47,809 nt of DNA. Origin: Marine Group I thaumarchaeote SCGC AAA799-D11. GTDB lineage: Archaea > Thermoproteota > Nitrososphaeria > Nitrososphaerales > Nitrosopumilaceae. Under the pieces are notes generated by a model. The model was given only the letters and a program-made list of their open reading frames with translations, made no database searches and was not told the origin of the DNA. Each line of letters starts with the position of its first letter. Position 1 is the stretch's first letter. Positions 40,495 to 42,848 of this stretch are shown piece after piece. Both the position numbers and the translations under genes were made by a program. Location of the stretch: NCBI GenBank assembly GCA_000746765.1, contig JOSY01000055.1:1-47809 (forward strand), given 5' to 3'.

Positions 40495-40540
40495 ACGCTA
40501 CCATAGAAAAAATTTGATGTTAAAAACTTTTCAAAAGAAA

Positions 40541-41170
40541 ATGGTAATTAAACAAAAAAAATACGACAAATCATTGAAAGTAAACTGCGATAATGAGGGA
40601 ATTGTAAAAGCATCTGAAATAATAGAGCAGGGAGGAATAGTTGTTTTTCCAACAGATACCGTTTATGGTATTGGATGCAATCCTTACAATAAAGAATCTG
40701 CAAAAAAAGTTTATGAGATAAAATCAAGAGACTTTTCAAAACCATTTCCAGTCTTAGTTTATTCAAAAGAGATAGCCAAACAGATTGCAGAGTTTGATGA
40801 GATTTCAGAAAAACTTGCTGAAAAATTTTGGCCTGGGCAACTAACAATTCTTTTGAAACTAAAAGACATGAAATTAAAAGAATCACTAAACCTTACAGAC
40901 AAAATTGCACTACGAGTTCCAAATCATAAATGCACATTACAGTTACTTGAGAAATGCAAGTATCTAGTTGGGACTAGTGCAAATGTTTCGGGGCAATCAT
41001 CATTTTTTGAACCTCAAGAATGTATCAAAAATGTAGAAAACTATGATGTCTTTGTTGATGGGGGAACAATTACAAGCAAAGGCGAATCGACAATTGTTGA
41101 GGTAGAAGATGGCAATATCAAGATCATCAGAGAAGGTTCTTTGAGCAAAGAGGAGATTTGGAACTCATGA
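40541..41170 (+). CDS. sua5: threonylcarbamoyl-AMP synthase (Sua5/TsaC/YrdC)
   Basis: 209 residues from ATG 40541. The YrdC domain has GGIVVFPTDTVYGIGCNPYN, VYEIKSRDFSKPFPVLVY, LAEKFWPGQLTILLKL, KIALRVPNHKCTLQLL, LVGTSANVSGQSSFFEPQ and GESTIVEVEDGNIKIIREGS. It makes threonylcarbamoyl-AMP, the donor for t6A37 in ANN-decoding tRNAs. The length is that of TsaC, with no Sua5 C-terminal domain. A possible TATA (GTTAAAAAC) is about 22 bp upstream. Its TGA overlaps the ATG of the THUMP gene (ATGA). The KEOPS subunit Cgi121, which acts later in t6A synthesis, lies two genes on, convergent. Confidence 0.93.
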   Translation: MVIKQKKYDKSLKVNCDNEGIVKASEIIEQGGIVVFPTDTVYGIGCNPYNKESAKKVYEIKSRDFSKPFPVLVYSKEIAKQIAEFDEISEKLAEKFWPGQLTILLKLKDMKLKESLNLTDKIALRVPNHKCTLQLLEKCKYLVGTSANVSGQSSFFEPQECIKNVENYDVFVDGGTITSKGESTIVEVEDGNIKIIREGSLSKEEIWNS

Positions 41171-41688
41171 ATTTGATAATTACATGTGCAAGACACTTGG
41201 AACCTGAAACAGAAGAAGAGTTGAGAGGATTTTTAGATGAATTTGGTGACTCTGATCCCAAAGTTACAATCACAAGCATGTCAGGTATTCTTACCGCAGA
41301 GACAAAGCTAGATCCAGTAGAAGTTGTGAGAAAAATCAAAGAGATGCTTCTTGATGAGCCTTGGAGTGTGAGATATTGTCTGAGAATAATACCAATTCAG
41401 AGAACAGTTGAGACAAAAATAGAAGAGATTGAAAAAATAGTAGAAGAGTTATCTGACAATATTTCAAAAGATGAAAAGTATAGAATTTCAATTGAGAAGA
41501 GAAACTCTGACATGTCAAGCCAGGACATTATTACAAAGATTGCAAAGAAGATAAAAAATCAGGTTTCACTTGAATTTCCAGACAAGGTTGTTTTAATTGA
41601 GATTCTTGGAAACAAGACTGGGATTTCTGTGCTAAAAAAGTCGGATATTTTGAGCACAGAGAAGACAAAGCGTAGTATCTCAGAGTAA
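41167..41688 (+). CDS. THUMP-domain protein (Tan1-like)
   Basis: 173 residues. MNLIITCARHLEPETEEELR and VTITSMSGILTAETKLDPVE open the family; THUMP follows, with WSVRYCLRIIPIQRTVETKI, YRISIEKRNSDMSSQDIITK and NQVSLEFPDKVVLIEILGNK. Eukaryotic Tan1 binds tRNA and, with an acetyltransferase, makes ac4C12; archaeal homologues are similar stand-alone THUMP proteins. I choose the ATG that overlaps the sua5 stop (ATGA) over an upstream TTG. Two tRNA-modification genes in an operon fits. The 3' end overlaps the MoaD-Cgi121 gene by 9 bp, convergent. Confidence 0.85.
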   Translation: MNLIITCARHLEPETEEELRGFLDEFGDSDPKVTITSMSGILTAETKLDPVEVVRKIKEMLLDEPWSVRYCLRIIPIQRTVETKIEEIEKIVEELSDNISKDEKYRISIEKRNSDMSSQDIITKIAKKIKNQVSLEFPDKVVLIEILGNKTGISVLKKSDILSTEKTKRSISE

Positions 41689-42453
41689 GACTGCTGCTTT
41701 TTCTACTAGAATATCTTCTAGAGGGGTTTTGGAATAGACTGAATCAAGTTGTTTTTTTGAAATTTTAAAAGACTTTTTCAGAAATGACTCGTTATTTTTT
41801 GAAAACAATGAAACGCATTGTGAGGAGAGTTCTTTGTATAATGAATCTAGATTTGTTTTATTTCCAATTGCAACTAGGATAAAATCAGTTTTTGGTTTAA
41901 TTCCAACAGATTCAATTGCAGCAGAGATTTGTTTTGTTAGTGCAAAACGCATTAGAATATCAGTTTCAAGTTTGTTTGAGAGTAGAACATCATTTTTCTG
42001 AGACTCTAGTGACAGAGACAAAATCTTTTTGAGATGAGAGCCATTTAGAACAAACTCACTTGATACTGCCTGAAGTATGGTTTTTGGGTATTTCTTTCTA
42101 AGTTCATCTAAGAACTTTACATCAATTGATTTTTGGCCTTTGATTTGAACTATTTGGATTTGTTTTGAAGAGACTTTGTAAAGCATCTTTTTGCTAGCAC
42201 CGCCATGAATTACAGGAATAATACTTACTACATCATTGTTTTTGATTACAGTTGACTTTCCATCCATTACAGAAGAATCAACGCCATTTACTGCAACTAG
42301 AACATTTTCAGTATCTAGTTTTGGGGAATCATCAGGCTTTAGTTGCAATAACAAGTCAATTAGTTCTGCAATTGTAATGTCTGATTTTTCAATCTCTAGT
42401 TTGTTTGTTGAAAAAGATTTTTTGGCACCACCAACAAGTTTTACAGTAATCAT
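41680..42453 (-). CDS. fusion of a MoaD/ThiS-type ubiquitin-like domain with KEOPS subunit Cgi121
   Basis: 257 residues. Residues 1-85 are a beta-grasp MoaD/ThiS/SAMP-like domain: MITVKLVGGAKKSFS, NVLVAVNGVDSSVMDG and NNDVVSIIPVIHGG, ending in the diglycine at 84-85 (codons at 42199-42204) that is normally the C-terminal, adenylated end. Without any linker the frame continues ASKKMLYKVSSKQIQ into a Cgi121 domain (about 91-257): AVSSEFVLNGSHLKKILSLS, LSNKLETDILMRFALTKQIS, AAIESVGIKPKTDFILVAIG and LEDILVEKAAVLL, as in archaeal Cgi121, which stimulates t6A synthesis via Bud32. So the diglycine is internal, as in ubiquitin precursors. Sua5 (t6A) is two genes away. Cleavage after Gly85 is plausible but unproven. 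Confidence 0.85.
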   Translation of the reverse strand: MITVKLVGGAKKSFSTNKLEIEKSDITIAELIDLLLQLKPDDSPKLDTENVLVAVNGVDSSVMDGKSTVIKNNDVVSIIPVIHGGASKKMLYKVSSKQIQIVQIKGQKSIDVKFLDELRKKYPKTILQAVSSEFVLNGSHLKKILSLSLESQKNDVLLSNKLETDILMRFALTKQISAAIESVGIKPKTDFILVAIGNKTNLDSLYKELSSQCVSLFSKNNESFLKKSFKISKKQLDSVYSKTPLEDILVEKAAVLL

Positions 42454-42494: not shown

Positions 42495-42848
42495 TTATTC
42501 AGATTTTTCTTCTGTAGTTTGAGGAGTTTCTGTTGTGGCCTCTGTTTCAGGAGCTGCTTCTGTAGTAGGTGCTACTGTGGTTTGGGGAGTTTCTTCTACT
42601 GGTTCAGGTTTTACTTGAGCTTGTTGTTCTTGGGCTTTGGAAGCTTCGGCTTGTGCTTGTTTTACTTTTTGTTCTCGAATCTCTTTTTTGATATAATTTG
42701 TAATATAACCTGCAATCTCATTTTTTAGTCCCTTTGAGCGGACAATTGAAACTTGATCTAGAACTTTTTTGTTGTCAGCAAAATCTTCACCAAACTTTGA
42801 CTTGTGAGTGTCTAAGACTTGGTATGAAAGACGTTTTATTCTATCCAC
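42495..42848 (-). CDS. rps17e: 30S ribosomal protein S17e with acidic C-terminal extension
   Basis: 117 residues. The core (1-65) matches S17e: RIKRLSYQVLDTHKSKFGED, FADNKKVLDQVSIVRSKGLK and NEIAGYITNYIKKEIREQK. A tail of about 50 residues then follows that is Gln/Ala-rich and then Glu/Thr/Pro-rich (VEETPQTTVAPTTEAAPETE), unlike the usual 60-70-residue archaeal S17e. The start is GTG. It lies 27 bp downstream of the tatD stop on the same strand and 42 bp upstream of the MoaD-Cgi121 start. Confidence 0.88.
   Translation of the reverse strand: MDRIKRLSYQVLDTHKSKFGEDFADNKKVLDQVSIVRSKGLKNEIAGYITNYIKKEIREQKVKQAQAEASKAQEQQAQVKPEPVEETPQTTVAPTTEAAPETEATTETPQTTEEKSE

Follow-up and report, generated by a model that had tools for sequence, protein, structure and literature searches.

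In a 47,809-nucleotide stretch of DNA from Marine Group I thaumarchaeote SCGC AAA799-D11 (contig JOSY01000055.1; the whole of this analysed stretch is hereafter the window), a single open frame on the minus strand (41680..42453) encodes a 257-amino-acid protein in which a ubiquitin-like domain (Ubl) ending in a diglycine is followed head-to-tail by Cgi121, a subunit of the KEOPS complex. Comparison with relatives makes it likely that this protein is a precursor cut after the diglycine, which is our preferred reading of the locus. An Urm1/SAMP-like Ubl would be translated as the N-terminal half of the precursor with Cgi121 as the C-terminal half, and the cut after Gly85 would be made by a protease that is most likely a desampylase of the JAMM type. 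The freed Ubl, with a C-terminal HGG, would then be activated by a ThiF/MoeB-type E1 and, judging from the gene set, could serve tRNA thiolation and/or protein conjugation, while the freed Cgi121 would join Bud32 in KEOPS for tRNA t6A synthesis. The architecture itself, which the original prediction had implied to be novel, has been in print since 2010, when Makarova and Koonin reported the fusion, the same protein beside the same S17e neighbour, in all Thaumarchaea then available (PMC2948915). The parts of that paper used here give no cleavage model, and none was found in the open-access literature, most subscription papers and supplements lying outside the scope of that search. What is new here is the comparative evidence on how the fusion works.

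Domains and junction of the Ubl-Cgi121 protein

Both halves of the protein were recognised by profile and by structure, as the original prediction had supposed from motifs seen in one unbroken frame. The N-terminal beta-grasp Ubl (residues 1-85; 42199..42453, minus strand) matched Pfam ThiS (residues 15-85, E 1e-9) and Urm1 (E 1.6e-5), and the Cgi121 domain (residues 86-257; 41683..42198, minus strand) matched Pfam CGI-121 (residues 123-253, E 3.8e-7), all above curated cut-offs; each half also matched when scanned singly, and the NCBIfam Cgi121 model NF011465 matched at E 2.8e-50. Scores against the NCBIfam models Urm1_like (25.2 bits, cut-off 70), SAMP1 (20.8, cut-off 60), moaD (20.1, cut-off 66.15) and moaD_arch (30.1, cut-off 49.5) fell below their thresholds, and the domain is therefore classed as a ThiS/Urm1-type Ubl and no narrower. 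A search of solved structures by sequence alone gave weak matches to the fusion protein (best E 0.033). An AlphaFold2 model built from 98 sequences had a mean pLDDT of 92.3 and a pTM of 0.68, with both domains confident and the block of residues 81-90 at the diglycine averaging 66, a pattern as expected, in a predicted structure, for two modules joined by an exposed linker. In a Foldseek search the model matched KEOPS Cgi121 structures from archaea, plant, yeast and human (best E 1e-9), as well as Urm1 and SAMP1 structures (E about 2e-4).

The two domains meet where the original prediction had placed their boundary: residues 78-85 read IIPVIHGG, with the diglycine at 84-85 closing the beta-grasp domain, and residues 86-94 read ASKKMLYKV. 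The junction codons (42196..42207, minus strand) encode HGG|A, residues 83-86, with the proposed cut between Gly85 and Ala86. Across 98 aligned fused proteins, our own selection from the homologues and public loci, H83, G84 and G85 were invariant down to 25% identity to the window protein; entropy was 0 at residue 85 but 2.38 bits at the following residue, and the spacing from the diglycine to the next invariant residue, R119, ranged from 26 to 43 residues. Fourteen other positions were likewise invariant in this alignment, so it is the sharp edge after the diglycine, rather than invariance alone, that is telling. In 80 public fused loci the histidine was encoded by both of its codons and each glycine position by all four glycine codons, indicating that it is the amino-acid sequence that is conserved. 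The residue after the diglycine was serine, alanine, threonine or glycine in 81 of the 98 proteins, against a background of 22% over the next 11 positions, and methionine in 12 of the other 17; it was serine, alanine or glycine in 76 of the 80 public loci. A sharp edge followed by a small residue is what a processing site, and not a structural linker, would be expected to show.

An unlikely alternative is that the protein stays fused for good, the attached Ubl serving KEOPS as a module for docking or regulation, or bringing an E1/thiolation complex to KEOPS-bound tRNA. Near-universal occurrence of the fusion in the Nitrosopumilaceae sampled and its place adjoining t6A and translation genes would suit such a role, as would the suggestion by Makarova and Koonin, in the text of theirs used here, that KEOPS is regulated by SAMPylation or that the two systems function in coordination (PMC2948915). 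An uncut Ubl exposes no C-terminal glycine, however; the diglycine of the fusions sits internally rather than at a terminus, and even so HGG never changes in the alignment, unlike the positions behind it.

Fused and separate genes across the class

The protein was matched at E <= 0.001 in 183 of 200 genomes of the class, and among the 17 in which it was not matched are two draft genomes of the Nitrosopumilaceae, the family of the window (G145, G167). The 119 other homologues among the best 120 of 1926 matches were all 257 amino acids long. The original prediction had proposed a search of thaumarchaeal genomes for the same architecture and for a stand-alone Cgi121, and both were found. The fusion, with the same junction and frame, occurred in 80 of 80 public loci (the best 80 of 151 relatives), where the junction script had HGG in its pattern and no locus failed, and in 64 of 90 genomes in which the locus was read, Nitrososphaera viennensis, N. 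evergladensis and N. gargensis being among the species that carry it. Another 23 of the 90 had separate Ubl and Cgi121 genes and three had a Ubl without Cgi121 on the stretch; 60 of these 90 loci were hand-picked among the matches listed, so that the ratio of fused to split loci is not a frequency, and the two sets overlap (six compared contigs are shared) and are not independent. The window's own genome, 87% complete, had no CGI-121 match besides the fusion. By title, 79 of the 80 public loci are archaeal and one proteobacterial; the latter (L227, JADFJJ010000046.1) is an archaeal Ubl-Cgi121 contig under the title Proteobacteria bacterium, probably a misassigned draft contig. That a sequencing or assembly error had joined two adjacent genes, a thought invited by the adjacent separate genes of relatives, has a negligible probability and is ruled out by the same frame in 80 of 80 public loci and in single-contig genomes, and by the uniform 257 amino acids of the best-matching homologues.

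In all 90 genomes whose locus was read, the Ubl domain was closed by histidine and diglycine, whether or not Cgi121 followed. Nineteen of the 26 stand-alone Ubls ended exactly at HGG and a stop codon, and seven carried tails of 1-7 residues. Of the 23 loci with separate genes, 19 had a candidate Cgi121 start no more than some 40 bases from the stop codon of the Ubl, and in three of the split loci (L048, L051, L054) a candidate Cgi121 ATG lay inside the HGG codons in another frame, from which a small frame change could fuse the overlapping genes. In genus g22, Cgi121 was detectable in seven of nine genomes; in the three that were read, the Ubl adjoined the gene for ribosomal protein S17e and ended in HGG, and the Cgi121 match lay about 184 kb away (G070), about 208 kb away (G100) or on another contig (G155). 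Separate and distant genes in relatives show that Ubl and Cgi121 can be encoded apart, which speaks against a permanent fusion. A tree of 62 rows required six changes of the fused label, and well-supported branches make at least four of these unavoidable; its inner branches are often weak, 26 of 59 being open. Whereas the fusion was reported in all Thaumarchaea available in 2010 (PMC2948915), separate genes are found here in other families within the order and the class, and also in three genomes of the genus (g26) to which N. viennensis, N. evergladensis and N. gargensis belong. Two split loci come from Nitrosopumilaceae drafts: in G106 a run of A is one base longer than that of a close relative, through either sequencing error or a real frameshift, and in G028 a TGA stands one codon past the diglycine. 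Their split state is uncertain as biology; among the seven tailed Ubls and the 23 split loci they contribute two each, and the case made from separate genes is built on other families.

These split relatives bear on two further explanations. Slow or regulated cutting might maintain mixed pools, with a full-length form in KEOPS beside free Ubl, but split relatives show the uncut form to be dispensable in them, and we consider such pools improbable. Alternatively, internal translation starts could make Cgi121 separately, so that free Cgi121 would need no protease. Residue 90 of the window protein is methionine, methionine stands directly after the diglycine in the 12 aligned fusions noted above, and the three loci with a candidate start inside the HGG codons fit the same idea. 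Against it, 62 of the 80 public fused loci have no in-frame ATG, GTG or TTG in the 14 codons after the diglycine (ATG occurs in six and only GTG or TTG in 12), and an internal start would yield no free Ubl; we regard this explanation as very improbable and reject it as the usual source of free Cgi121. Of the two outcomes that the original prediction had left side by side, the comparisons thus back the precursor, through the junction, the split relatives and the JAMM proteins described below, over the permanent fusion, whose parts are separate in relatives. The equal dose of two proteins that it foresaw from a precursor is plausible; it is not specific to a fusion, because most split relatives have tightly spaced neighbouring genes.

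Ubl, protease and KEOPS genes, and precursors cut in other systems

A ThiS search covered 50 genomes, 18 of them from the window's family (16 fused and the two split drafts, G028 and G106). In the 16 fused genomes of this family the search turned up no stand-alone ThiS-type Ubl, none of them having a match in an open reading frame under 245 amino acids. Fourteen of them had a second ThiS match, in an open reading frame of 438-814 amino acids; it was missing in G000 and G193. Twenty such long frames were read, 15 in Nitrosopumilaceae (13 of these in fused genomes) and the other five outside this family, and each had an N-terminal Ubl ending in GG followed by E1-like sequence, the next residue being serine in 14, alanine in three and leucine, glutamate and glutamine in one each. 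One of them, scanned by Pfam, matched ThiS and ThiF (E 6.5e-74). At these second loci (L096-L115; for example L109:1576-2889, minus strand) a Ubl is thus arranged head-to-tail with a ThiF-domain E1, and the frame beside it encodes what we take, from its sequence, to be a threonine-synthase-like protein. Ubl-E1 fusions in Thaumarchaeota were already recorded in PMC2948915. Where these genes were read, an E1 is present but a stand-alone ThiS-type substrate was not found, and a permanent fusion would leave no such Ubl in the fused genomes searched to feed the E1.

Prok-JAB proteins, the candidate proteases, occur in 186 of 200 class genomes and are of two kinds (JAMM-A and JAMM-B); the window's genome encodes two. 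Its JAMM-A matched the Haloferax desampylase model at E 1.6e-15, below the cut-off, and both proteins keep Glu, HSH and SxxD. Each of the 27 JAMM frames inspected has Glu, HSH or HTH, and SxxD, seven of them with motif spacing one residue shorter. JAMM-A was present in 14 of 15 genomes that would need a cut versus 13 of 19 with a bare Ubl end, where G013 (66.8 bits) and G164 (a partial match at the edge of a contig) are counted as present and G196 (22.1 bits, JAMM-B) as absent, and G171 is omitted, its Ubl locus being unread. In the two genomes of genus g34 (L046, L047), a divergent JAMM-A lies beside S17e and the Ubl, and both Ubls are tailed after the diglycine.

As for the routes that the freed proteins might enter, the model arch_bud32 for Bud32, the kinase of KEOPS, scored above its cut-off in seven of seven genomes, the window's own included, and TIGR00269, which we take to be a TtuA/Ncs6-type protein, was matched in 11 of 12 genomes searched. 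MoaE was found in none of nine genomes by a search that was positive in 11 of 14 control genomes, making a MoaD role in molybdenum cofactor synthesis unlikely.

Modifiers made as precursors and cut after a diglycine are familiar from the ubiquitin-ribosomal protein fusions of eukaryotes. Urm1 and the SAMPs are known as stand-alone proteins; the Urm1/Uba4 and SAMP/UbaA pairs share with the present system a beta-grasp Ubl ending in diglycine and a ThiF/MoeB-type E1, and differ in that the Ubls here are fused to Cgi121 or to the E1. Closer likenesses can be drawn from parts of the reports on MoaD-MoaE fusions. MoaX functions only once cut at Gly82|Ser83 (PMC4326299), a Deinococcus JAMM protein cuts MoaD-MoaE (PMC8832034), and HvJAMM1 cuts SAMP1-MoaE in vitro precisely after the glycine, while in cells SAMP1-MoaE works only with jamm1 and no cut was seen when the diglycine was lacking (PMC4443979). 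In each of these the Ubl comes first, followed by GG and then the partner protein, as here, and MoaX shares with Ubl-Cgi121 the small residue after the diglycine. The cut is required for function in the cases so described, whereas that of Ubl-Cgi121 is predicted from sequence, and their partner, MoaE, is an enzyme that uses the Ubl, whereas the partner here is a KEOPS subunit, MoaE having been matched in none of the nine genomes searched. In Caldiarchaeum, Rpn11 cleaves a pro-ubiquitin behind its GG, and the SAMP precursors of this archaeon are cleaved by its JAMM protein (PMC6043591). Like the eukaryotic fusions, this pro-ubiquitin is a modifier precursor cut after GG, as is proposed here, but it loses a 9-residue tail, whereas a whole unrelated protein stands behind the diglycine of Ubl-Cgi121. 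A cut Ubl-Cgi121 precursor would be a variant of the known JAMM-cut Ubl-MoaE kind.

Cutting after the diglycine is thus favoured by the invariant HGG with hypervariable sequence and a small residue behind it, by the stand-alone Ubls of relatives that end at GG or with short tails, and by the lack of a stand-alone ThiS-type Ubl in the fused genomes searched together with the presence of JAMM proteases. Several points weigh against it. The invariant diglycine could serve an uncut function instead, and an earlier Haloferax study, as quoted in part of PMC8832034, found that the SAMP1 diglycine was not required for HvJAMM1 cutting of linear fusions, which weakens the link between diglycine conservation and JAMM cutting. 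The association of JAMM-A with genomes that would need a cut runs the way the proposal predicts but is not significant (Fisher p = 0.10; 34 genomes, whose rows are related), and the one exception among those genomes, the fused G193, a 350-contig draft that is 90% complete, had no JAMM match. In the window's own genome a second Ubl was not found by the ThiS search, the only search for an E1 made there. Finally, G044, a single-contig genome of the window's genus and the sole exception among the 12 genomes searched, had no TIGR00269 match, so that in some genomes the Ubl may have a use other than tRNA thiolation.

A broader proposal, for and against which we see the balance as about even, is that in Nitrosopumilaceae every ThiS-type Ubl would be made only as the head of Cgi121 or of an E1, that JAMM proteins would be the maturation enzymes for the whole Ubl system, and that free modifier would be supplied in one-to-one coupling with the production of KEOPS and E1. 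If the cut takes place, the fusion would be a prokaryotic counterpart of the ubiquitin-ribosomal protein precursors, an independent parallel, a group of abundant marine and soil archaea would mature their Ubl system through the cutting of linear fusions, and the supply of a sulfur carrier or modifier would be tied to t6A synthesis. The comparisons yield a testable statement, namely that cells should contain a free Ubl ending in HGG and a Cgi121 that begins at the next residue.

Neighbouring genes

Directly upstream of the fusion gene, across a 41-base gap, lies the gene for ribosomal protein S17e (42495..42848, minus strand; Pfam S17e E 3.9e-22). An S17e frame was present at 74 of the 80 public fused loci, where flanks are sometimes cut, and S17e and the fusion gene are probably one operon. 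The S17e protein of the window has a long low-complexity tail rich in glutamate, threonine and proline, and S17e models span residues 3-60 or 4-99 of its 117. Judged by unaligned frame lengths, longer S17e frames seem common in the window's family and shorter ones in other families.

On the other side, a gene for a stand-alone THUMP-domain protein (41158..41688, plus strand; Pfam THUMP E 1.8e-9) converges with the fusion gene, their frames overlapping by 9 bases, and was present at 80 of 80 public fused loci. Beyond it lies the gene for Sua5/TsaC, the L-threonylcarbamoyladenylate synthase of the first step of t6A synthesis (40514..41170, plus strand; TIGR00057 E 4e-50), found at 68 of the 80 public fused loci with the same proviso on flanks. 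Sua5 had been predicted to lie two genes from the fusion, and so it does, on the opposite strand with the THUMP-domain gene between them. The THUMP-domain frame also overlaps that of Sua5.
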